DNA of 64,000 nucleotides, from contig CAIYCW010000055.1 in NCBI GenBank assembly GCA_903924855.1, forward strand, positions 1-64,000, read 5' to 3'. The stretch's first letter is position 1. Each line of letters opens with the position of its first letter. The notes beneath the pieces are model-generated. The model did no database searches. It saw only the letters and a list, made by a program, of their open reading frames with translations, and was not told the origin of the DNA. Made by a program: the position numbers and the translations under genes. Positions 36,747 to 49,069 of the stretch are shown one piece after another. The DNA comes from an uncultured Rhodospirillales bacterium. Its GTDB lineage: Bacteria; Pseudomonadota; Alphaproteobacteria; Acetobacterales; Acetobacteraceae.

Positions 36747-39110
36747 TCAGTTGATCAGCGCATGGCCACCGATTAGCTTGGTGTCCTCCGCCAGCACGTT
36801 GAAGTATGTCACGGCGGTGCCGTAGCCCACCAGGATGACGCCATGGGTGGGATCGTCGGAGCTGAACAGCGTGATGGCGGCGTGGCCGTTATAGGTGCCG
36901 CTGCCCACGGTCAGCACCGAGCTTGCCGCCCCCTTGAGGTCGATGTTCAGCTCGTCCAGCCCGTACTGGTAGCCGGAGATCACCTCGATCCCATTGCTGG
37001 GTTGCAAGGTGATCTCGATCTCGGCGGTGGCGCTGGTCAGGAACAGCGTGCCGGGCACGCCGTTGAGCGTGATGGTGCCGTTGGCCAGGCCCGACGCATC
37101 ATAGGCCACGTTGCTGGTCAGCTGAACCAGTGTGGCGGGGCTTGTATGGGTCAGGGTGAGCGTGGAGACGCCCAAAGCTGTTTGGGTGGGCGTGACAAAG
37201 CCGTAGTAATCCAAGGCCTCGCCAAACAACGGCACCAGTTTCTGGATCGCGAAATCCTCCTCCGGCAGCGGGCCGGTGACGGTGCTGACGTAGTTGCCAG
37301 CACTGTTCAGCGCCCAAACGATGGCGCTGTCGGCAAGCTGATAAACGCTGCCGCCCTCCTCGAACACCACCTCATAGCCACCAGGGACAGCCACGGCCGC
37401 GTAGGGATCGTAGGCTCCAAACTCCCCTGGAGAGATCGGGGCGCCATTCAGACTGACGGCCGGGCCGGAGCCAAGGTTGTTCAGCAGATAATACGCGTTG
37501 GACAACGCCGCATACTCGAAGGTGGTGCCCCCAACGATTGAAAGTGTTTTTGTTTGAGGCTGGCCCACGAAACCATCCGCGTTGAAATCCTTGTCGAACA
37601 CGGTTTCCTGCGCCCACAGGGCCGGTGTTTCACCCGTCATGACGCCAGTGGCGGAGGTGTAGCTGCCGACAATGTTGAAATCGAGGCGAATGAAATTGGC
37701 GCCGTTCTCGAACATCACCGCATAACCGCCGGTCACACCGGTGACGGCCACGGGCGTGTAGCCATTGAAATGACCCGAGCTGATCGGAGTGCCTCCGACC
37801 GTGAGCACGGTGTATCTCGTGCCGTCGTAAATTTCGTATTCATCGGCGGCCTGATACAAATAGAGGGAGCCGCCGTTGTCGACGTAATTGTAATAGAGAC
37901 CGACGACGCCATCGCCGTTCAGATCGATTCCGAACGTATTCTCCAGGCTCTGCAGGGCAAAACTGGACCCTGCGAGCTGCGCGGTGACGGGTCCGGTGTA
38001 GTTGCCGGTGCCGTTGAATTCCAAGCCGATGTATTGCGAGCCGTTGCCGAACATGACCTCATAGCCGCCGGTGTTGCTGATAATTCCCACCGCGCTGTAG
38101 CCGTTGAAGTTGCCGGAAATGATCGGGCTGCCATTGACTTGCAGAACCGCCGCCAGACCCGCATTGTTCCAGATCGTGTATTCGTTTGCCTCCTGATACA
38201 GGGTGAATGTGGGTGCCTGGGTTTCGATTGTGGTGAACACCGGGCCTTCGGTGCCGTCCCCGTTGAGATCGTTGCTGAAGCTGCCCTCCAACATCTCCAG
38301 TGCAAGGCTGCCCGATGTCAGAACGCTGGTGGCGGCCGAGAGGTAGTTGCCGGAGCGATCGAAGTCGAGGCCGACGAAGTTGGTGCCGTTGCGAAACATC
38401 ACCTCGTAGCCGCCCGTCAGTCCCATCACCGCGATTGGCGTGTAGCCGTTGAACTGGCCGGATGTGATCGCGCTGCCGGCGACTGTGAGGACGGGTTTGG
38501 ACGTGCCGCTCCAGATTTCGAACACCTCGGCTGCCTGCGTCAGAACGACGTTGCCGCTGCCTTCGAGCGTCGTATAGACGGGCCCATAGGTGCCATCCAA
38601 GTTCAGATCAGCAAAGAAGGTGTTCTCCAGGCTCTCCAGCGCAAAGCTGGAGCCGGCCAGAACCGGGGTCGCGGCGGAGGTGTAGTTGCCATTGCTGTCG
38701 AAATCGAAACCGACAAAGCCGGTGCCGCTTTTGAACAGCACCTCGACACCCGTGCCGGACGAGATCATGTCAATCGGGGTGAAGCCGTTGAACTGGCCCG
38801 AGATGATCGGGTTTCCGGAGACCTGCAGGACCTCGAACGGCCCGGCGCCGCTGCTGAAGACGAACTCCTTGTCCACCGTGTAGAAGTTATAGGGTCCGAC
38901 CGAGGGGATCGTGGTCAGCACCGGACCGATATGACCGTCTCCGTCGAGATCAAAGCTGAACGCAGTCTCAAGCTCCTGGAGCGCAATCGTGCCGGAGCTC
39001 AGCGCGCTGGTGGCAGCCGAGGTGAAGGCGCCGGCGGAATTGAAGTCAAGGCCCAGGAAGGAGGTGGCGTTCTTGAACATCACCTCAAAGCCACCGGTGA
39101 CCGGGATCAC
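36747..39110 (-). CDS. Giant tandem-repeat protein A, C-terminal part (separated by a frameshift)
   Basis: This open frame (787 residues) is the continuation of the frame at 39,085-41,007. It starts in mid-repeat at VTGGFEVMFKNATSFLGLDF and holds the rest of unit 6, units 7-11 and the C-terminal domain. Units are about 115 residues and end in loops such as DLNLDGTYGP, DLNGDGTEGP and DLNGDGVVGL, resembling dockerin/EF-hand calcium loops. The unit before the last contains ALWAQETVF, a feature also of protein C. The final domain (HTSPATLVQLTSNVAYDASG onwards) includes GIEVISGYQYGLDELNIDLK and ends GGHALIN. Joined with its upstream part the gene would encode about 1,419 residues. Whether the split is real, a sequencing error or a phase switch is open. 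Confidence 0.8.
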   Translation of the reverse strand: MIPVTGGFEVMFKNATSFLGLDFNSAGAFTSAATSALSSGTIALQELETAFSFDLDGDGHIGPVLTTIPSVGPYNFYTVDKEFVFSSGAGPFEVLQVSGNPIISGQFNGFTPIDMISSGTGVEVLFKSGTGFVGFDFDSNGNYTSAATPVLAGSSFALESLENTFFADLNLDGTYGPVYTTLEGSGNVVLTQAAEVFEIWSGTSKPVLTVAGSAITSGQFNGYTPIAVMGLTGGYEVMFRNGTNFVGLDFDRSGNYLSAATSVLTSGSLALEMLEGSFSNDLNGDGTEGPVFTTIETQAPTFTLYQEANEYTIWNNAGLAAVLQVNGSPIISGNFNGYSAVGIISNTGGYEVMFGNGSQYIGLEFNGTGNYTGPVTAQLAGSSFALQSLENTFGIDLNGDGVVGLYYNYVDNGGSLYLYQAADEYEIYDGTRYTVLTVGGTPISSGHFNGYTPVAVTGVTGGYAVMFENGANFIRLDFNIVGSYTSATGVMTGETPALWAQETVFDKDFNADGFVGQPQTKTLSIVGGTTFEYAALSNAYYLLNNLGSGPAVSLNGAPISPGEFGAYDPYAAVAVPGGYEVVFEEGGSVYQLADSAIVWALNSAGNYVSTVTGPLPEEDFAIQKLVPLFGEALDYYGFVTPTQTALGVSTLTLTHTSPATLVQLTSNVAYDASGLANGTITLNGVPGTLFLTSATAEIEITLQPSNGIEVISGYQYGLDELNIDLKGAASSVLTVGSGTYNGHAAITLFSSDDPTHGVILVGYGTAVTYFNVLAEDTKLIGGHALIN

Positions 39111-41007
39111 CGCTTCCGGCGTGTAGCCGTTGAACTGACCCGAGAAAATCGGGCTGCCCCCCGACAGTCAGGAAGGCGGACACTGCGCCACTGCTGAGAA
39201 CATAGGCACTGTTCTCCTGGGAAATCGTTGTCACGCCGAGTTGCGCCACTCTTGAGACGAAGATCGGGCCAATAGTGCCATCCCCGTTCAGATCGGTGTT
39301 GAACACCGGCTCAAGGCTTTGCAAGGCAAAGGAACTGCCGGCGAGCACGCTTGTCGCAGCCGAGGTGAAGGCGCCCGCGACGTTGAAATCGAGACCGGCA
39401 AAGCCGGTGCCGCTTTGGAACATCACCTCGAAACCGCCCGTGACCGGAATCTCCGCCAGCGGGGTGAAGCCGTTGAAATGACCCGAGATGATCGAGCTGC
39501 CGCCGACCTGCAGGATCGCCGAAAATGCGGGCCCGTTGGTGAGTTCATAGACGTCGTCCACCTGGAACAGGCTGTAGCCGCTGTTGGTGTCGATCAGCGT
39601 GGAGGTGGGCGAGTGGAGGTCCAGCGTGGCGTTGAACGCGCCGTTCAGGCTCTCCAGCGCATAGGTCCCCGATTGCAGCACGCCGGTTGCAGCAGAGGTG
39701 AGATTGCCGGTGGTATCGAATTCAAGACCGACGAAACTGGTGCCGTTTCGAAACATCACCTCATAGCCGGCGGCATTGGACAGCATGGCAACGGGGCTGT
39801 AGCCGTTGAAACTGCCTGACACGATGTCGCTGCCGCCCGATTGCAGGAAGACCTTGATCGAACCGCCGCTGGTGATGGCAAAATTGTCGGCCTCCAACAT
39901 GAGACCGTAGACCCCATTGGTGCCGATGGAGCTTGTGTTTGGCCCGATGCGGCCGGTTTGGTCGAGCGAGGTGTTGAACGCTGCGTCCAGGCTCTCCAGC
40001 GCGTAGCTGCCCGCTTGCAGCGCAGAGGTCGCGGCCGAGGTGAAGGTGCCGGCGGCGTTGAATTCCAGGCCCACGAATGTGGTGCCGCTTTGGAACATCA
40101 CCTCATAGCCAGGCGTGTTCGAGAGCAAGCCGACTGGGGCATAGCCGTTGAAACCACCGGGGAAGATGATCGTTCCGGATACCACAAGCGGCCCCACCAC
40201 GGTGCCGGCGCTGGTGAACGCATAGGCGTCGGTGAGTGAGCCGATCGTGTAAAGCCCGTTGCTGACAACGGGTGTCAGATGTGGTCCGACAACGCCATCG
40301 CGGTTCAGGTCGGAGCGGAACGATGATTCAAGGCTCTCCAGCGCATAGGTTCCGCGGTGAAGCTGGCCGGTCGCGGCGGAGACGTAGGCGCCGGCGGTGT
40401 TGAATTGCAGGGCCTCGAAAATGTTGGTGTCTGCGCTTTCGAACATCACCTCGTAGCCGCCGGCATTGACCAGCAAGGCCACGGCTTGGTCGCTCTGACC
40501 GCTGGACGTGGTCGGGGTTCCGGCGACGTTGAGAATGCCCTGCACCGATCCACCGACGGTGATTTCATACTCGTCAGCGACCTGGACCAGGTCGAACAGG
40601 GCGGCACCTTGGGTGTTGTAGGCGATCGTGGTGCTGGTCACACCGGTCGTGCCATCGGCGTTGAGGTCGGTGTTGAAGCCAGGCTCCAGGCTTTCCAGCG
40701 CATAGGAGCTGCCGGTGAGCACGCCGGTTGCGGCGGAGGTGAAGTTGCCGCCGGCGTTGAAGTCGAGGCCGACATAGCTTGCGCCGTCCTCGAACATCAC
40801 CTCATAGCCGCCGCCGGTGATGGCCTCGATCCCGATCGGGGTATAGCCGTTCAGGGTGTTGGAGATGGCAACGCCGCCAATTTCGAGCGTTGCTTCGAGC
40901 GTGGTGCCGCTTGAGACCTGAAAGGCGCCGTTTGATGCGATGTGATAGATCGAGAGCGCGCCGTTGGAGGCAACGCGGGCGGAGAGCAATACCGGCAAAA
41001 CGATCAC
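39085..41007 (-). CDS. Giant tandem-repeat protein A, N-terminal part (separated by a frameshift)
   Basis: 640-residue frame. It begins VASNGALSIYHIASNGAFQV, matching the N-termini of proteins B and C, and has no signal peptide. Repeat units 1-5 and half of unit 6 follow, with the consensus EITSGG...LQV.G..I.SG.FNGY.P.A, GGYEVMF.SGT.FVGL.F and G.FTSAAT..L.GSYALESL. The last 19 residues (from PDFLGSVQRLH) do not fit the repeat; removing one base from the C6 run at 39,157 restores it. The start codon is GTG at 41007 or TTG at 40998; GGAG at 41,009 suits the TTG better. Together with the next frame it is a single gene or former gene. Confidence 0.8.
   Translation of the reverse strand: MIVLPVLLSARVASNGALSIYHIASNGAFQVSSGTTLEATLEIGGVAISNTLNGYTPIGIEAITGGGYEVMFEDGASYVGLDFNAGGNFTSAATGVLTGSSYALESLEPGFNTDLNADGTTGVTSTTIAYNTQGAALFDLVQVADEYEITVGGSVQGILNVAGTPTTSSGQSDQAVALLVNAGGYEVMFESADTNIFEALQFNTAGAYVSAATGQLHRGTYALESLESSFRSDLNRDGVVGPHLTPVVSNGLYTIGSLTDAYAFTSAGTVVGPLVVSGTIIFPGGFNGYAPVGLLSNTPGYEVMFQSGTTFVGLEFNAAGTFTSAATSALQAGSYALESLDAAFNTSLDQTGRIGPNTSSIGTNGVYGLMLEADNFAITSGGSIKVFLQSGGSDIVSGSFNGYSPVAMLSNAAGYEVMFRNGTSFVGLEFDTTGNLTSAATGVLQSGTYALESLNGAFNATLDLHSPTSTLIDTNSGYSLFQVDDVYELTNGPAFSAILQVGGSSIISGHFNGFTPLAEIPVTGGFEVMFQSGTGFAGLDFNVAGAFTSAATSVLAGSSFALQSLEPVFNTDLNGDGTIGPIFVSRVAQLGVTTISQENSAYVLSSGAVSAFLTVGGQPDFLGSVQRLHAGSGDPGHRWL
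39157..39162. other. C6 homopolymer run at the frameshift point of giant gene A
   Basis: Six consecutive C on the plus strand (G6 on the coding strand) at the point where the coding frame jumps. With five bases the reading is GGSPIFSGQFNGYTPEAVIP, a perfect repeat unit. The total span 36,747-41,007 is one base more than a multiple of three. Confidence 0.85.
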
Positions 41008-41175
41008 TCCACGTCAGAGACCGCGGCCTTGATCGGTCAGGATTTATGATCCGTTGCGCGTCTCGTTGCTTTCAGGGCGAAAGCTCACACAGAAATCATT
41101 GCGATGCCAGGAAATTTGTTGGAATCTCGATATATGTTGCACCATTGTGTGCGATCGCGCTGACGGAATCCGGGG
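41008..41175. other. Intergenic region upstream of giant gene A
   Basis: 168 bases between genes B and A. It contains GTTGCAC (41,136-41,142) and ACGGAAT (41,163-41,169), which also occur in the same order upstream of gene B (45,765 and 45,791). The stretch around 41,112-41,140 is AT-rich, compatible with a promoter. No hairpin terminator is evident. Confidence 0.45.
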
Positions 41176-44100
41176 TCAGGTGATCACGGCATGGCCACCG
41201 ATGAAAGTCGTGTGGTTGGTCGGCACACTGTCCGATGTCACCATGGTGCCATAGCCCACCAGAATGACCCCGTGAGTTGGATCGGCCAAGCTGAAAAGCG
41301 TGATCGCAGCCTGGTTGTCATAGGTGCCGCTGCCCACCGTCAGCACCGAGCTTGCCGCGCCCTTGAGGTCGATGTTGAGCTGATCCAGCCCGTATTGGTA
41401 GCCGGAGATCACCTCGATCCCGAGGGTCTTTTGCAGCGATATGTCGATCGTGGCGGTGGCACTGGTGAGGACAAGCGTGGCGGGCGTGCCGGTGAGGGTG
41501 AAGGTGAAGCGGCCGAGGCCCTCCCCGGCATAAGCGGTGTTGTTGGCCAGTTGCACCGTGGTGGCGGGGCTTGCTTGCGTCAGGCTGAGCGTGTTCAGCC
41601 CGGACGATACCTGGGTGGACAGCACCTGGGTGGACAGCCGGCCATCGCCATTGAGATCCTGCCCGAACACCGGCTCCAGCTGCTCCAGGGAGAAATCCTG
41701 GCCGGTGACCGGACCTGTCACCAGGCTGGTGTAGTTGCCGGCGCTGTTGACGGCCCAGACGATATAGGTGTCGGACGCGGTGTCCTTGAACGCCACCTCG
41801 TAGCCGCCGCCGGTCACCGCAACCGCGCCGATCGGGTTGATTGTGCCAAGCTGGCCCGAGCTGACCGGGACAGAGTTCACCTGCAGCTCCGGGCCAGACC
41901 CCTGGGCGTCGTAGAGATAGTAGCTGCTGAACGCCACAAGGGTCAGTGTGGTGCCATTGTCGGTCTGGATGGCGGATTGCGGCAGACCGACCAGGCCATC
42001 GCCGTTGAGATCGGTTGCGAATTCTGTCTCCAGGCTTTCAAGAGCCGTGCTGGACCCGGCCAACAACGCGGTGTCGGCGGAGAGGAAGTTGCCGCTGGTG
42101 TCAAACTCGAGACCGATGAAGCCGGTGGCGCTGTTGAACATCACCTCATAGCCGCCGGCATTGGACAGCACAGCCAGCGGGTTGAAACCGGCAAATTGGC
42201 CGGACATGATTGGGGCACCCGAGATCCGCAGGACGGTTTGCGAAACATTACCGTTGTCGTCCGCAAGCCGGTGGTCCTCTATCACGAACAGGTTGTCTTC
42301 GATGAACAGGCCGAGGGGACCGTTTTCTCCGATAAAAGACTGCATCGGTCCCACCACGCCGTTGTGATCGAGATCGTAACCGAACTGCTGCTCCACCAGG
42401 TGCAGTGCGTAGGTTCCCGAGGTCAACACACCGGTGGCGGCGGAGAGCTCGTGTCCGGAGGTGTCGAAATCCAGGCCGATGAAGCTGTTGGCGCTGTTGA
42501 ACATCACCTCATAGCTGCCGGCATTGGCGATCACCGCCTCCGCCGTGAAGCCAAAGAACTGTCCCGAGATGATGGGCTTGCTGGAGACCAGCAGCACGGC
42601 GGATTGTGGACCACTCGTGATCTCAAACACATTGCCCGCCAGGTTGAGCACGGGGGTGATTGCGTTCAACGAGACCGGGCTTTCGATCACGACCAGATTG
42701 GGGCCGATCGTGCCGTCACCGTTCAGATCGACGTTGAAGCCTCGCTCCAGGCTTTCCAGCGCGTAGCTGCCCGATGCCAGGAGGCCGGTGACCGCTGAGA
42801 GATATGCGCCGTTGGTATTGAAATCGAGCGCGACAAAGGATGCGCCGCTGCTGAACATGATTTCGAACGCGGCCCCGTCCATCGTCACGGCCTGTGGCGT
42901 GAAGCCGCCGAACTGGCCTGAGATGATGGCCCTGCCGTTGATCTGCAGGATGCCCTGCACCGCACCACCGCTGGTGATCTCGAACTCATCGGCCACACCA
43001 ACCAGATTGAGCGCGCCGTTGGTGGCGATCACCGTGCTGGTCACGCCGATGACACCATCTCCATTCAGATCGTCGCCGCCGACATACTGGTTGCCGAATG
43101 CCGTCTCCTGGCTCTCCAGCGCGTAGGAGCTGCCGGCCAGCAAACCCGTGTCGGCGGAGAGGTAGTTGCCGCTGATGTCAAACTCGAGCCCGATGAAGCC
43201 GGTGGCGCTGTTGAACATCACCTCATAGCCACCGAAATTGGACAACAGCCCGATCGGGTCGAAGCCGTTGAAGTGGCCTGAAATGATAGGAGAACCCGAA
43301 ATCTGCAGAACAGCCCAAGACGCTTGGGAAATCCCCGGCAAATTCTTTCCATTCTGGATCACGAACACATTATCTTCTTGAAACAAATATTGGCCGCTGT
43401 CGTATTGGATTGGCTGTTCTATCGGCCCTACGTTCCCATCTCCATCGAGATCGTAACCAAACTGCCGCTCCACCACGTGCAGGGCAAAGCTGCCCGATGT
43501 CAGCACGCCGGTGGCGGCGGAGAGGAAGTTGCCGGCGCTGTCGAAATCGAGGCCGATGAAGCTGGTGTCGCTGTTGAACATCACCTCATAGCCGCCGGTA
43601 TTGGCGATCACCGCCTCCGCCGTGAAGCCGAAGAACTGTCCCGAGATGATGGGCTTGCTGGAGACCAGCAGCACGGCTGATTGTGCACCACTTGTGATCT
43701 CAAACGCGTTGCCCGCCAGATTGAGCACTGGGCTGGTTGCGTCCAACGCAAGCGCGGCTTCGATCGGGACGAGATTGGGGCCGATTGTGCCATCACCGTT
43801 CAGATCGGCGTTGAAGCCCGGCTCCAGGCTTTCCAGCGCGTAGCTGCCCGATGTCAGGATACCGGTGGCTGCTGAGAGATATGCGCCTTTGGTATTGAAA
43901 TCGAGCGCGACAAAGGATGCGCCGCTGCTGAACATGATTTCGAATGCGGCCCCGTCCATCGTCACGGCTTGTGGCGTGTAGCCGGCAAACTGGCCTGAGA
44001 TGATGGGGCTGCCGTTGATCTGCAGGATGGCCTGCACGGTGCCGCCGCTGGTGATCTCGAACTCATCGGCCAAGCCAACCAGATTGAGCGCGCCGTTGGT

Positions 44101-45672
44101 GGCGATGGTGGTGGAGAGCACGCCAATCGTGCCATCACCGTTGAGATCATCGTCGAGCGATGACTCAAGATTTTCGAGCGCGAGCGAGTTGCCCGCGAGT
44201 ATGCCGGTTGCGGCTGAGGCGTAGTGACCGCCGCTGTCAAAATTAAGCTCAATAAACTTTGTATCGCCCTTGAAGACCACGTCGAATGGGCCGGGGCCCT
44301 GGGTCACGTACACCGGTGTGTAACCGCCAAGCTGTTCCGATGTCATCGGTGCGCCCGACAATGTCAGAAAAGAAGAGGCAACGGCTGATGTTGTGAGCAA
44401 GCCACCAGTTAGGTGATCATAGCCTGTGATCGTGAATGTGTCGAAGTTGATTTCGTATTGATCAGCGACCGTGATGAGATATCGGGCATAGGGTGAATAT
44501 CCTGGCGACTCTGGAAATGGGTGCTCGTCCAGAGTGACGCTGGTGAGGCCCGTCGTGCCATCGCCGTTGAGATCGACACCGAACGTGTTTTCCAGGCTTT
44601 CCAGCGCGTAAGAACCGCCGGCTAGCAGGCTCGTTGCGGCCGAGGTGAGATTGCCGGCACTGTCGACGTTGAGCGCGATGAAACTGGAGCCGCTCTGGAA
44701 CATCACCTCATAGCCGCCACCGCTCGCCAGCACACCATCCGGCGTGAAGCCGCCGAAACGGCCGGAGATGATCGGGCTTCCCGAATATGTCAGGATCTGA
44801 GCCATCGCAGCGCCGCTGATGATCTCAAACTCGTCCGCAACCGAGACCAGCGCCACCGGTCCGTTGACTGCTATGGTGCTGCTGGCAAGGCCTGTTGTGC
44901 CATCGCCGTTGAGGTCGTAGCCCAAGCCCAACTCTAGGCTTTCCAGCGCATATGAGCTGCCGGCCAGCAGGCTGGTCGCGGCTGAGAGATAGTTGCCGCT
45001 GCTGTTGAAATCGAGGCCGATAAACGATGTGCCGCTTTTGAAAACCACCTCAAAGCCGCCAGACGGCTGGGTGACGAACGCGGGGACAAAGCCATGAAAC
45101 TGGCCGGAAACGATGGGGGACCCCGACACGGTCAGGATGACAGATGTCTCCGTCACAGCGCCATATGTATACCCTTGGCTGCTGACTTCGTTCGCAAAGG
45201 AATCAGTGACAACTTCATACTCATCCGCGACCTGGAGCACGCTATGGGCGGAAGCTGGATATTCTCCCTGGGTCAGAAACGGTCCACTATAGATTGTGGA
45301 TGTCATCGGGCCACGAGAACCATCACTGTTGAGGTCGTCCGCGAAGCCTCGCTCCAGGGATTGCAGCGCGTAGGAACTGCCGGCCAGTACAGCCGTGGCG
45401 GCCGAGGTGAAATTGCCGCCCGCGTCGAAATCCAACCCGATGAAGGTGTCTGTCGTGGCATCCCGCCACATCACCTCGTAGCCGCCGCCCACGATGGCTT
45501 CGAGGGCGATCGGGTTGTAGGCGCCAAATTGTCCGGAGCTGATCGGCAGGCCGCTGAGTTCCAGCGTGGCCTCAAGCGTTGATCCGCTCGACACCTCGTA
45601 GACGGTTCCTGATTGCAACAGCGTCAACGCGCCGTTGTACGCAATCGTCACCTGCGGCAGATCCGCCATCAT
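41176..45672 (-). CDS. Giant tandem-repeat protein B
   Basis: 1,498 residues from the ATG at 45672 (GGAG 6 bases upstream). The frame opens at 45,771, but that start lies in the conserved upstream motif. It has no signal peptide. Eleven repeat units of about 115-140 residues, then the C-terminal domain (LTQASPATTVQLANNTAYAG; GIEVISGYQYGLDQLNIDLK; ending GGHAVIT). Most units close with a DxNxDGxxG loop (DLNGDGTTGL, DLNGDGTIGP, DLDGDGNVGP). Units 5-7 and 8-10 are near copies of each other, a block duplication. The last unit (VTGQDFSLEQLEPVFGQDLN) is a distinct cap also found in protein C. I infer a calcium-binding surface or secreted protein; no known function. Confidence 0.85.
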   Translation of the reverse strand: MMADLPQVTIAYNGALTLLQSGTVYEVSSGSTLEATLELSGLPISSGQFGAYNPIALEAIVGGGYEVMWRDATTDTFIGLDFDAGGNFTSAATAVLAGSSYALQSLERGFADDLNSDGSRGPMTSTIYSGPFLTQGEYPASAHSVLQVADEYEVVTDSFANEVSSQGYTYGAVTETSVILTVSGSPIVSGQFHGFVPAFVTQPSGGFEVVFKSGTSFIGLDFNSSGNYLSAATSLLAGSSYALESLELGLGYDLNGDGTTGLASSTIAVNGPVALVSVADEFEIISGAAMAQILTYSGSPIISGRFGGFTPDGVLASGGGYEVMFQSGSSFIALNVDSAGNLTSAATSLLAGGSYALESLENTFGVDLNGDGTTGLTSVTLDEHPFPESPGYSPYARYLITVADQYEINFDTFTITGYDHLTGGLLTTSAVASSFLTLSGAPMTSEQLGGYTPVYVTQGPGPFDVVFKGDTKFIELNFDSGGHYASAATGILAGNSLALENLESSLDDDLNGDGTIGVLSTTIATNGALNLVGLADEFEITSGGTVQAILQINGSPIISGQFAGYTPQAVTMDGAAFEIMFSSGASFVALDFNTKGAYLSAATGILTSGSYALESLEPGFNADLNGDGTIGPNLVPIEAALALDATSPVLNLAGNAFEITSGAQSAVLLVSSKPIISGQFFGFTAEAVIANTGGYEVMFNSDTSFIGLDFDSAGNFLSAATGVLTSGSFALHVVERQFGYDLDGDGNVGPIEQPIQYDSGQYLFQEDNVFVIQNGKNLPGISQASWAVLQISGSPIISGHFNGFDPIGLLSNFGGYEVMFNSATGFIGLEFDISGNYLSADTGLLAGSSYALESQETAFGNQYVGGDDLNGDGVIGVTSTVIATNGALNLVGVADEFEITSGGAVQGILQINGRAIISGQFGGFTPQAVTMDGAAFEIMFSSGASFVALDFNTNGAYLSAVTGLLASGSYALESLERGFNVDLNGDGTIGPNLVVIESPVSLNAITPVLNLAGNVFEITSGPQSAVLLVSSKPIISGQFFGFTAEAVIANAGSYEVMFNSANSFIGLDFDTSGHELSAATGVLTSGTYALHLVEQQFGYDLDHNGVVGPMQSFIGENGPLGLFIEDNLFVIEDHRLADDNGNVSQTVLRISGAPIMSGQFAGFNPLAVLSNAGGYEVMFNSATGFIGLEFDTSGNFLSADTALLAGSSTALESLETEFATDLNGDGLVGLPQSAIQTDNGTTLTLVAFSSYYLYDAQGSGPELQVNSVPVSSGQLGTINPIGAVAVTGGGYEVAFKDTASDTYIVWAVNSAGNYTSLVTGPVTGQDFSLEQLEPVFGQDLNGDGRLSTQVLSTQVSSGLNTLSLTQASPATTVQLANNTAYAGEGLGRFTFTLTGTPATLVLTSATATIDISLQKTLGIEVISGYQYGLDQLNIDLKGAASSVLTVGSGTYDNQAAITLFSLADPTHGVILVGYGTMVTSDSVPTNHTTFIGGHAVIT

Positions 45673-45835
45673 GGTCACTCCGTCGAGGAGACGACGGACA
45701 TCACATGCGTGTTGCTCCGGAAATACCGCCTGCCAGATGATATTTTCTATTTCTGGGATCGATCGTTGCACATATCACGCATGCCGCCTAACGGAATTCT
45801 TCCGCCTGACGCAGGATTCAACCCGGCCGCTGGTC
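45673..45835. other. Intergenic region upstream of giant gene B
   Basis: 163 bases. It contains GTTGCAC (45,765-45,771) and ACGGAAT (45,791-45,797), as upstream of gene A, beside an AT-rich stretch TATTTTCTATTTC (45,741-45,753). These are candidate elements of a shared promoter. Confidence 0.45.
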
Positions 45836-48800
45836 TCAGGTGATCAGGGCATGGCCGCCGATGAAATTGGTGTGGCCGCTGATGATGTTGGCCGCGGTGA
45901 CGGCCGAGTTGTAGCCGGTGAGGATGATGCCGTGCGACAGATCGGCGGTGCTGTAGAGCGTGATGGCGGCCTGGCTGTTATAGGTGGTGGCGGTTGCCCG
46001 CAGCGTGGCGTTGGCGGCACCCAGCAGGTCGATGTTGAGTTCATCGGTTGTGTAGGTGAAGCCGCTGATCACATCGATGCCGGCGGAGGGAGCAAGGGGG
46101 AGTTGGATCGTCTCCTGGGTCGATCCGAGCACCACCACGCTGGGCGTGCCGGACACCGTGAGGGTTGCGGCGGATATCAGTGACGGTGCCGCGGCCGTGT
46201 TGGTGGCCAGCGTGATGATGTAGCTTTCCTGGGAGGTGGCGAAGCTGGCGAAAGACACGGCGCCCGGGAAGACGCCCTGCATCAGCCTGCCATCGCCGTT
46301 CAGATCCTGGCCGAAAGTCGGTTCGAGCTGTTCGAACTGGAAATTCTGACCGGTGACCGGCCCCATGATTGTGCTGGTATAGGCCCCGGTGGTGTCGAAT
46401 TTCAGCACCGAATAGGCGTTGGCCCCCACGCTCTGCCACACGACCTCATAGCCGCCACCCACCGCCAGGGCGCCGATCGGTGCGACACTGGTGTTGGAGG
46501 TCAGGGGCGTGCCGCTGAGCGTCAATGTGACCGGGGCGCCACCGTTGCTGGCGACCCGGTAGGTGGTGCCGGAGATGCTGAGCGTGGTGCCGTTGTCCAC
46601 CCGCAGGTTGCTGACCGGGGGGCCGATCTGGCTGTCTCCGTTGAAGTCGGTGCCGAACAGGGTTTCCTGGGCCCACAAGGCCTGGCTGCTGATGGCCAGC
46701 ACGGAGGTGGCGGCCGAGGTGAAGGCACCGGAGCTGGTGAAATCGAGGCCGAGGAAGGTGGAGCCGCTGGTGGGGCCGGTCATCCCGGCGCTGCTGACGA
46801 ACATGACCTCGAAGCCGCCGCTGATGGCGGCGACATCGATCGGGTCGAAGCCTGCGAACTGGCCCGAGACGATCGGAGCGCCCGCCACCTGCAGGATGGA
46901 CTGCAAGGCGCCGCTTGAGATGGCGAATTCATCCGCCTCGTGCCACAGGCCGAGGCCGGTTGAATTGTGCACCACGATGGCGGAGCTGGCGATGCCTGTT
47001 ACGGCGTCGCCGTTGAGGTTGACGTTGAACCCCTGCTCCAGGCTCTCCAGCGCGTAGCTGCGCGCGCCGAGCAGAGCGGTTGCGGCCTGGGTGAAATTGC
47101 CGCTGCTGTCGAAGTCCAGGCCGATGAAGCCGGAGCCGCTTTTGAACATCATCTCGAAACCGCTGGCATTGCTCTCGAGCGCGACCGGGTTGAAGCCTGC
47201 GAACTGGCCCGAGACGATCTGGTTGCCTGACACTTTCAGCACTGCTTTCAGCGTGCCGCCGCTCAGGATGGCGAAGGCGTCCGCCTCCTGGGCCAGGGAG
47301 TAGACCCCGTTCAAGGCGATGGTGCTGACCCACGGTCCGTTTCCGGCACCGTTGCCGTCCAGACTGGCGTTGAAGGCGGAATCGAGACTTTCCAGCGCAT
47401 AGGTGCCCGAGGACAGCATGCCGGTGTCGGCCTGGGTGAAATTGCCGGTGGAGTCGAACTCAAGCCCGACGAAGCTGGTGGCGTTCCTGAACATTACCTC
47501 ATAGCCGCCGGCATTGGTCAGCATGGCCACCGGGTTGTAGCCCGCGAACTGGCCGGAGACGATCGGGGTGCCGGCCACTTTCAGCACCACCTCCAGGCTT
47601 GCATTGCTGCGGATGGTGAATTCATCGGCTTCTCGCTGCAGGGTGTAGGGCCCGTTATAGGAGATGCCACTCAAGACAGGACCGATCGGCCCTGCACTGT
47701 CCAGGCTGATGTTGAACGCGGAATCGAGGCTTTCCAGCGCATAGGTGCCTGATGACAGCAGGCTGGTGGCAGCCGAGACGAAATTGCCGCTGGTGTTGAA
47801 CTCCAAGCCGATGAAGCTGGTGCCGCTTTTGAACATCACCTCATAGCCACCGGAATTCGCCAGCACCGCAACCGGGGTGAAGCCGGCAAAATTGCCGGAA
47901 ACGATCTGGCTGCCGGCGACCTGCAGGACGGCTTGCGTTGGCTGACCGCTGCTGATGACGACGAAGGCATCCGCCTCGCTGACCAGGGAGACCGTTGAAT
48001 TGACGTCGATGTTGCTGGTGGTCGGGCCAATGACAGTGTCACCGTTGAGGTTTTTGCCAAAACCTGGCTCCAGGCTCTGCAGAGCGTAGCTGGAGCCCGC
48101 GAGCACGGAGGTGGCGGCCTGGGTGAAATTGCCGGATGCGTTGAAGTTCAGCCCGACGAAGCTTGACCCGCTTTGGAACATCACCTCGTAGCCGCCATAG
48201 CTAGCCTCCACGGCGACGGGTGCGAAGCCTGCGAACTGGCCGGAGATGATGGCGCTGCCACCCACCTGCAGGATTGCCTGTTGCACGCCTCCGCTGGTGA
48301 TCTCGAATTCATCGGCGATGTTGGCGATGCCGAACGCACCGTTGGAGGCGATGCTGCTGATCTTGGGCCCGGTTGTGCCATCGCCGTTGAGATCGCGGGC
48401 AAAGCCGGTCTCAAGGCTTTCGAGCGCGTAGCTGGAGCCGGCCAGCAGGCTGGTGGCGGCCTGGGTGAAATTGCCGGATGCGTCGAAGTCCAGCCCGACA
48501 AAGCTCGATGCGCTTTGGAACATCACCTCATAGCCGCCGGAGATGGTCTCCACGGCGACGGGTGCGAAGCCCGCGAACTGGCCGGAGACGATGGCGCCGC
48601 CACCCACCTGCAGGATTGCCTGTTGCACCCCGCCGCTGGTGATCTCGAATTCGTCGGCGATATGCGCGAGGTAGATCGCGCCGTTGGAGGCGATGTTGGT
48701 GATTTTCGGGCCGATTGCAGTGTCGGCGTTGAGATCTGCACCAAATCCAGGCTCCAGGCTCTGCAGGGCATAGGAACTGCCGGCAAGCACGGCTGTGGCG

Positions 48801-49069
48801 GCGGAGGTGAAATTGCCCGCTGAATCGAAATCCAGGCCAACGAAGGTCGAGGTGGCAGCATCCTCCCACATCACCTCGAAACCACCGCCAGCGACTGCCT
48901 CAAGACCGATCGGGGCATAGCCGGGAAGCTGTCCCACGCTGATCGCCGAACCGCCCAGGGACAGCGTCTCCTCCAGGGTCAATCCGCTGGAAACCTGGTA
49001 GATCCCGGCCGATTGCCAGAGCGTGAGGGCGCCGTTCGAGCCAACCAGGGTTTTCACGGGTGCTGTCAC
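45836..49069 (-). CDS. Giant tandem-repeat protein C
   Basis: 1,077 residues from a GTG at 49069 (GGAG 9 bases upstream). Eight units of about 115 residues and a C-terminal domain. Units 2 and 3 are nearly identical (IADEFEITSGGVQQAILQVG). Loops are well kept in units 2 and 8 (DLNGDGTTGP, DLNGDGRL) but degraded in units 4 and 5 (LDSAGPIGP, LDGNGAGNGP), so calcium binding may be lost in part. Unit 7 has the insertion GMTGPTSG and ALWAQETLFG. The C-terminal domain carries GIDVISGFTYTTDELNIDLL and ends GGHALIT. Without a signal peptide, secretion would need a C-terminal signal. Confidence 0.85.
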   Translation of the reverse strand: MTAPVKTLVGSNGALTLWQSAGIYQVSSGLTLEETLSLGGSAISVGQLPGYAPIGLEAVAGGGFEVMWEDAATSTFVGLDFDSAGNFTSAATAVLAGSSYALQSLEPGFGADLNADTAIGPKITNIASNGAIYLAHIADEFEITSGGVQQAILQVGGGAIVSGQFAGFAPVAVETISGGYEVMFQSASSFVGLDFDASGNFTQAATSLLAGSSYALESLETGFARDLNGDGTTGPKISSIASNGAFGIANIADEFEITSGGVQQAILQVGGSAIISGQFAGFAPVAVEASYGGYEVMFQSGSSFVGLNFNASGNFTQAATSVLAGSSYALQSLEPGFGKNLNGDTVIGPTTSNIDVNSTVSLVSEADAFVVISSGQPTQAVLQVAGSQIVSGNFAGFTPVAVLANSGGYEVMFKSGTSFIGLEFNTSGNFVSAATSLLSSGTYALESLDSAFNISLDSAGPIGPVLSGISYNGPYTLQREADEFTIRSNASLEVVLKVAGTPIVSGQFAGYNPVAMLTNAGGYEVMFRNATSFVGLEFDSTGNFTQADTGMLSSGTYALESLDSAFNASLDGNGAGNGPWVSTIALNGVYSLAQEADAFAILSGGTLKAVLKVSGNQIVSGQFAGFNPVALESNASGFEMMFKSGSGFIGLDFDSSGNFTQAATALLGARSYALESLEQGFNVNLNGDAVTGIASSAIVVHNSTGLGLWHEADEFAISSGALQSILQVAGAPIVSGQFAGFDPIDVAAISGGFEVMFVSSAGMTGPTSGSTFLGLDFTSSGAFTSAATSVLAISSQALWAQETLFGTDFNGDSQIGPPVSNLRVDNGTTLSISGTTYRVASNGGAPVTLTLSGTPLTSNTSVAPIGALAVGGGYEVVWQSVGANAYSVLKFDTTGAYTSTIMGPVTGQNFQFEQLEPTFGQDLNGDGRLMQGVFPGAVSFASFATSQESYIITLATNTAAAPSLISAATLTVSGTPSVVVLGSTQETIQLPLAPSAGIDVISGFTYTTDELNIDLLGAANATLRATATTYNSQAAITLYSTADLSHGIILTGYNSAVTAANIISGHTNFIGGHALIT

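Follow-up and report, generated by a model that had tools for sequence, protein, structure and literature searches.

The 64,000-nucleotide window analysed here (bases 1-64000 of contig C55 from an uncultured Rhodospirillales bacterium) carries, on the minus strand at positions 36747-49069, three same-strand paralogous genes that fill this region. Their products, here called proteins A, B and C, each consist of an array of tandem W_rich_C units (Pfam PF07483) followed by a common C-terminal domain ending GGHA(L/V)I(T/N). The repeats and the common C-terminus, but not the family, had been noticed in an earlier reading of the letters alone (the sequence-only reading). As a whole, they are quite probably best explained as W_rich_C arrays without an enzyme, whose C-terminal domain would direct them to a type I exporter and which would form a surface coat or adhesin. 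While the unit belongs to a known family, its form here, poor in tryptophan and without an enzyme, is new, as is the C-terminal domain, which has no name. The source assembly comprises 3.90 Mb in 154 contigs and is 84.5% complete.

The sequence-only reading knew no characterised family with this unit. This has to be revised, since the unit is catalogued as PF07483: in scans with Pfam and NCBIfam, which report the best stretch per family per protein, all four reading frames of the array score 74.9-252.9 bits against a cut-off of 26.2 (E 6e-21 to 3e-76). The two halves of protein C, which lie in separate frames, were analysed separately. Tryptophan richness gives the family its name and is not part of the cut-off. 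The window units have lost most of these tryptophans, with 0.75 (A), 0.27 (B), 0.00 (C upstream) and 0.67 (C downstream) per unit. Elsewhere, the values are 0.12 for a giant protein on contig C152 and 0.8-1.0 for proteins on C64, C15 and C68 of the same genome, and 1.8-3.75 for proteins of other genomes, where the score limit of the counting script was passed by just one unit in each of two proteins from Ruegeria and one from Phaeobacter.

Unit number and boundaries were determined with an own profile built from the window units and applied to all four frames. It yields units of about 105-111 residues, namely 8 in A, 11 in B and 5+6 in C (30 in total, one being the part unit at a frameshift). 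The earlier estimate of 8-11 copies per protein thus stands, with the 5+6 of protein C split over two frames. Of the sizes proposed earlier, 1,077 residues for A is correct and 1,498 for B is obtained if translation starts at the internal Met34 (base 45672) of the longer frame. The 1,419 residues given for C do not hold, as its two frames overlap by 26 bases in different frames, indicating a frameshift near 39.1 kb. The shift is either real or an assembly error, with one assembly to judge from. The arrays begin almost at the N-terminus, with the first unit at residue 3 in A, at residue 41 in the full frame of B (8 from Met34) and at residue 10 in the upstream frame of C. In agreement with the sequence-only reading, no signal peptide was apparent in the window proteins when judged by eye without a predictor. 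All four frames are acidic (net charge -62, -126, -41 and -59 for A, B, C upstream and C downstream) and contain 0, 1, 0 and 0 cysteines, respectively. No enzyme domain exceeded its cut-off in the Pfam and NCBIfam scans of the window proteins, weak matches to the repeats were judged to be chance, and promoter and terminator scans remained at chance level.

Features of the W_rich_C array (positions in the window; pLDDT, predicted local distance difference test)
Feature	Positions	Strand	Remarks
W_rich_C array protein A, 1077 residues; 8 units (residues 3-925) and C-terminal domain	45836..49069	-	PF07483 E 9.7e-72
W_rich_C array protein B, 1531-residue frame; 11 units and C-terminal domain	41176..45771	-	PF07483 E 2.6e-76
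Protein C, upstream half, 640-residue frame; 5 complete units and a truncated sixth	39085..41007	-	PF07483 E 6.2e-21
Protein C, downstream half, 787-residue frame; a truncated unit, 5 complete units, then the C-terminal domain	36747..39110	-	PF07483 E 1.1e-41
Unnamed C-terminal domain, protein A; model of 165 residues, starting with a few from the last unit	45839..46333	-	predicted beta-roll-like
Same domain, protein B	41179..41673	-	domain search
Same domain, protein C	36750..37244	-	domain search
Two tandem units of protein A, structure predicted	48029..48727	-	mean pLDDT 94.4, model from 54 rows
Duplicated block of three units in protein B, copy 1 (residues 546-905)	43057..44136	-	74% identical to second copy over 359 alignment columns
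Duplicated block of three units in protein B, copy 2 (residues 906-1262)	41986..43056	-	pairwise alignment to first copy

The claim that most units end in DxNxDGxxGP needs correction: a DxN/DxD loop is present in 21 of the 30 units (4/8 in A, 9/11 in B, 3/5 in C upstream and 5/6 in C downstream), the full motif in fewer. In one further unit the loop is displaced by an insertion. By reading, the sequence ahead of the loop resembles the first half of an EF-hand, and the loops suggest that the units bind calcium. In the model of two tandem units of protein A, each unit forms two four-stranded antiparallel meanders and then a helical stretch that runs into the DxNxDG loop; in the second copy the helix is broken. 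The best VIA-align match of this model is part of a glutaminyl cyclase (Z 6.6, 90 residues, 3.0 Å), and none of 978 chains reached Z >= 8. The solved structures nearest to the model are pieces of beta-propellers, which stay at Z <= 6.6 and mostly cover one unit; we therefore make no fold claim and name no clear relative. Two Foldseek rows with E < 0.001 had TM-scores < 0.3, and a search of PDB sequences with the units gave nothing useful (best E 0.0078, a FliK chain). According to an excerpt of PMC2605481, W_rich_C is a domain of a subtilisin from the cyanobacterium Synechococcus. Our literature search for W_rich_C/PF07483 returned nothing beyond that paper.

The C-terminal domain is not assigned to a family in any of the Pfam or NCBIfam scans, in which the best stretch per family is listed. 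Its predicted structure is most similar to the C-terminal part of MIS38 lipase (VIA-align Z 8.0, 105 residues, 3.0 Å), followed by LipA (7.7), PrtC (7.4), the R-module of AlgE6 (7.1) and an RTX fragment of adenylate cyclase toxin (7.0). RsaA, the surface-layer (S-layer) protein of Caulobacter, is matched at Z 7.0-7.1 with an alignment that reaches its C-terminal end. RTX proteins, which on established knowledge we take to be type I substrates, account for 41 of the 50 listed rows; these are about a dozen distinct proteins with many repeat entries. Among the 50 rows obtained with the same pipeline for the two-unit model there is no RTX protein. Many of the matched entries appear in a table of RTX structures in PMC6891781, an excerpt of which also states that serralysins have a domain that caps the RTX roll, and that its final ~20 residues hold the type I signal. 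The model of the window domain aligns to the C-terminal RTX rolls of RsaA and the family I.3 lipases (Z 7.5-8.0), but the domain has no GGxGxD repeats and no match to these proteins at the sequence level. RsaA-type S-layer proteins are marked by an N-terminal LPS-binding domain and a 2D lattice; the resemblance to RsaA was seen at the C-terminus only. As the window proteins do not contain GGxGxDxxx nonapeptides, they are not classed as RTX proteins.

Further W_rich_C proteins were found in the same genome, with 42 PF07483 matches on contigs C55, C64, C15, C68 and C152. The C64 protein (1160-residue frame) combines an RTX nonapeptide stretch with six W_rich_C units and the C-terminal domain, and is the only protein of the genome for which the nonapeptide family (PF00353) was reported. 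The C152 protein (6138-residue frame, L034:3-12614, with L051 upstream) has AIDA stalk repeats, eight units by profile and the C-terminal domain. Contig C15 ends and C68 begins inside W_rich_C arrays. Since the repeats at these contig ends (L033 end, L032 start) are very similar, both may belong to one giant gene with a glycine-rich array that was broken by the assembly. The C15 frame, which runs off its contig, contains one GGxGxD. Altogether the C-terminal domain occurs six times in the genome, on every sequenced C-terminus of a W_rich_C protein (6/6), the seventh frame (C15) being incomplete; the copies are 42-69% identical to the first of the six.

A tree was computed from 92 units (94 were found, two short ones were excluded); it is based on few columns and leaves many forks open. 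The units of this genome are all placed on the same side of a branch whose support (92/76) does not reach the star level of the tool. The three window proteins have their first units in a single clade (100/96). A second clade (100/96) unites the units directly ahead of the C-terminal domain in the window proteins and in those on C152, C68 and C64, and also includes the first unit of the C152 protein. Taken with the repeated block of three units in protein B, the pattern is consistent with duplication of whole genes whose ends stayed fixed while the middle expanded. Compared with PF07483 in general, the window units agree in size, in scoring above the cut-off, in their tandem arrangement and in a DLNGDG-type end, but differ in being poor in tryptophan, in lacking an enzyme domain and in lying on their own side of the above branch.

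The sequence-only reading had found no adjacent transporter and had suggested looking for type I genes elsewhere in the genome. Both points were borne out. A tblastn search with two ABC (ATP-binding cassette) and two HlyD queries (E <= 1e-3) detected no type I ABC or HlyD gene in the window or the rest of contig C55, where the HlyD profile gave two matches at 73.8-74.8 kb with 41.8 and 23.1 bits, far under the cut-off of 208.65. The single HlyD above the cut-off in the genome is located on contig C82 beside an HlyB-like ABC protein, and one TolC above the cut-off is located on C13. The run of genes around the HlyB-like ABC protein and HlyD (L052:8815-17092) also includes a Sel1-repeat protein and a two-domain glycosyltransferase; a link between export and glycosylation at this locus is possible.

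Relatives were sampled in 249 genomes of the family, 337 across the class and 8 of the genus, with the own genome counted each time. The C-terminal domain occurs in 15/249 family genomes and in 1/337 class genomes, which is the window's own; W_rich_C occurs in 7/249, 3/337 and 1/8 genomes of family, class and genus. A plasmid search with the C-terminal domain gave no match. In 39 loci the domain script detected it on 34 frames, of which two are from the own genome; it missed the C152 copy, which other searches for the domain find. Seven frames with the domain encode calpain-like (Peptidase_C2) proteins (L060, L061, L065, L066, L121, L123 and L124). Others are a DUF4214 protein, a GloVer-repeat protein that has W_rich_C as well, and W_rich_C arrays, which in one case follow an NF038122 metalloprotease. 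Apart from this domain, the calpain-like Acetobacteraceae proteins differ from the window proteins by their protease, by another repeat in several of them (SDTAANV..L..DSKLTSI type, by eye) and by having no reported W_rich_C. The domain is modular and common to otherwise unrelated proteins.

W_rich_C is combined with Peptidase_M10_C and RTX on two Ruegeria plasmids and in three other genomes (G175, G366 and G470; loci L148, L149, L150 and L155), with RTX over the cut-off in three of these four frames and below it in L150. In Ruegeria sp. THAF33 and AD91A, genes annotated as type I ABC and HlyD lie downstream of the W_rich_C RTX serralysin gene, at a distance of 0.8 and 2.2 kb, respectively, with two regulator genes in between in AD91A. 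Because the loci are syntenic, they count as one instance. These serralysin-type proteins share with the window proteins an array on a likely type I substrate, but they carry M10-type domains, mostly RTX nonapeptides and another C-terminus and, in Ruegeria, have exporter genes nearby. Judged by these domain combinations, at least some of the proteins on which W_rich_C travels are of the type I kind, and those of the window resemble W_rich_C arrays from which the enzyme is absent.

Type I export through the C-terminal domain is indirectly supported by predicted structure and gene content, because type I substrates have C-terminal beta-rolls to which the model of the domain can be aligned and the domain is modular, because the C64 sister protein has RTX nonapeptides and the genome encodes HlyB-like, HlyD and TolC proteins, and because W_rich_C is found on RTX serralysins, in Ruegeria near annotated exporter genes. 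With slightly better than even confidence, we propose that the ~150-residue domain serves type I export and capping, has not been described before, and kept the beta-roll while losing the calcium nonapeptides. It would be a common tail for the export of very different Acetobacteraceae proteins, from W_rich_C arrays and AIDA-stalk giants to calpain-like proteases, DUF4214 and GloVer-repeat proteins, with the exporter encoded elsewhere in the genome.

The proteins would leave the cell in one step via a type I (ABC-HlyD-TolC) secretion system, most likely the one containing the HlyB-like/HlyD locus on C82, with the uncleaved C-terminal domain serving as targeting element and folding cap. Outside the cell, calcium on the DxNxDG loops between the units would probably make the chain rigid, giving a rod built of beta modules, and folding would depend on calcium. 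The exported proteins would then act as a surface coat or as a multivalent adhesin or matrix protein. Of the earlier proposal of calcium-dependent adhesins or S-layer-like proteins exported by a type I-like system, it is the export that is supported; calcium is suggested by the loops, and the adhesin or S-layer role is one we infer. A coat or adhesin is the likeliest single reading of their function, with chances that are about even against any other extracellular role.

Several observations weigh against this interpretation. On the structural side, the C-terminal model was built from 20 rows with a moderate pLDDT of 77.4, and its best Z of 8.0 is near the level reached by common structural arrangements. 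Non-RTX proteins make up 9 of the 50 VIA-align rows (CylK in five, up to Z 6.9, lymphostatin in two and a clostridial toxin in two), Foldseek alone gave no significant match for this model (best E 1.1), and a profile search of PDB sequences with the domain returned no RTX protein. GGxGxD is absent from the four window frames and all 20 C-terminal rows. Regarding calcium, 9 of the 30 units have no calcium-type loop, and as read from the sequence their twelfth residue is not acidic, unlike that of an EF-hand. The expectation that many homologues with the same C-terminus would lie near RTX exporters failed: the flanks of 30 loci outside the own genome (27 distinct places) contained no recognisable HlyD or type I ABC gene, many of these flanks being short and cut by contig ends. 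Exporter genes close by are common for type I substrates but not obligatory. HlyD homologues are present in 237/249 family genomes, including all 15 carriers of the C-terminal domain; because of this frequency, their co-occurrence is uninformative and was dropped as a test of export. The HlyB-like ABC protein on C82 reaches 531 bits to TIGR01846, below the cut-off of 725.55. Furthermore, the Ruegeria protein near the exporter has a different C-terminus from the window proteins, no exporter was found beside a Phaeobacter plasmid W_rich_C gene in the stretch examined, and no HlyD match was obtained in L148-L157, the W_rich_C loci without the C-terminal domain.

Among other explanations, a role as secreted ligand- or carbohydrate-binding scaffolds is the most serious, although we consider it less probable than a coat or adhesin exported by type I. 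W_rich_C would normally be an accessory binder on exported hydrolases, and only the binders would have been kept here. This agrees with the absence of enzyme domains over cut-off from the window proteins, with the occurrence of W_rich_C in relatives together with M10 serralysin-type domains, GH16 plus CBM60, a sub-cut-off GH17 and the NF038122 metalloprotease, and with the cyanobacterial subtilisin mentioned above. Tryptophans often line sugar-binding sites, but in the window they are mostly lost (0 to 0.75 per unit versus 1.8 to 3.75 in other genomes), and to our knowledge no binding activity is known for the unit.

LapA-type RTX adhesins, in which a retention plug at the N-terminus anchors the protein in the outer membrane, resemble the window proteins in size, repeats, the predicted beta-roll-like domain at the C-terminus and likely type I export. 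However, the first unit of the window proteins starts at residue 3, 8 or 10; the N-terminus of protein A runs directly into it and leaves no room for a retention module, which makes this assignment very improbable. We consider it just as improbable that the proteins are intracellular or non-functional relics of a decaying array. In its favour, gene C is split by a frameshift, and this genome is the only one of the eight in the genus with W_rich_C. On the other hand, two long frames are intact, the copies of the C-terminal domain retain the identity given above, and first units clade together as do last units (with one extra row), suggesting selection on position.

If the preferred explanation of type I-exported, enzyme-less arrays is true, giant extracellular proteins of Acetobacteraceae become recognisable by one C-terminal domain, without an RTX motif or a nearby exporter. 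W_rich_C would gain a likely setting on type I-exported proteins and a confident predicted fold, by which a binding function becomes testable. Our literature search on type I secretion with RTX or C-terminal signals in Acetobacteraceae, and for Rhodopila, found nothing.

Some details of the surveyed loci remain to be added. Three pairs of loci are duplicate records (L064/L116, L067/L125 and L063/L134). ABC proteins encoded near the C-terminal domain were considered as type I exporters and rejected: the one in L121 is MsbA-like, the one in L123 resembles it (212 vs 211 bits, a comparison of scores only), the one in L126 is of importer type and those in L135 gave weak matches only. A Phaeobacter inhibens plasmid encodes a protein annotated as hypothetical with seven near-identical W_rich_C repeats beside heme-uptake genes (L146:10046-12466). 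In two Acetobacteraceae genomes (L152 and L154), GH16 and CBM60 domains are combined with four W_rich_C units in proteins without the unnamed C-terminal domain.

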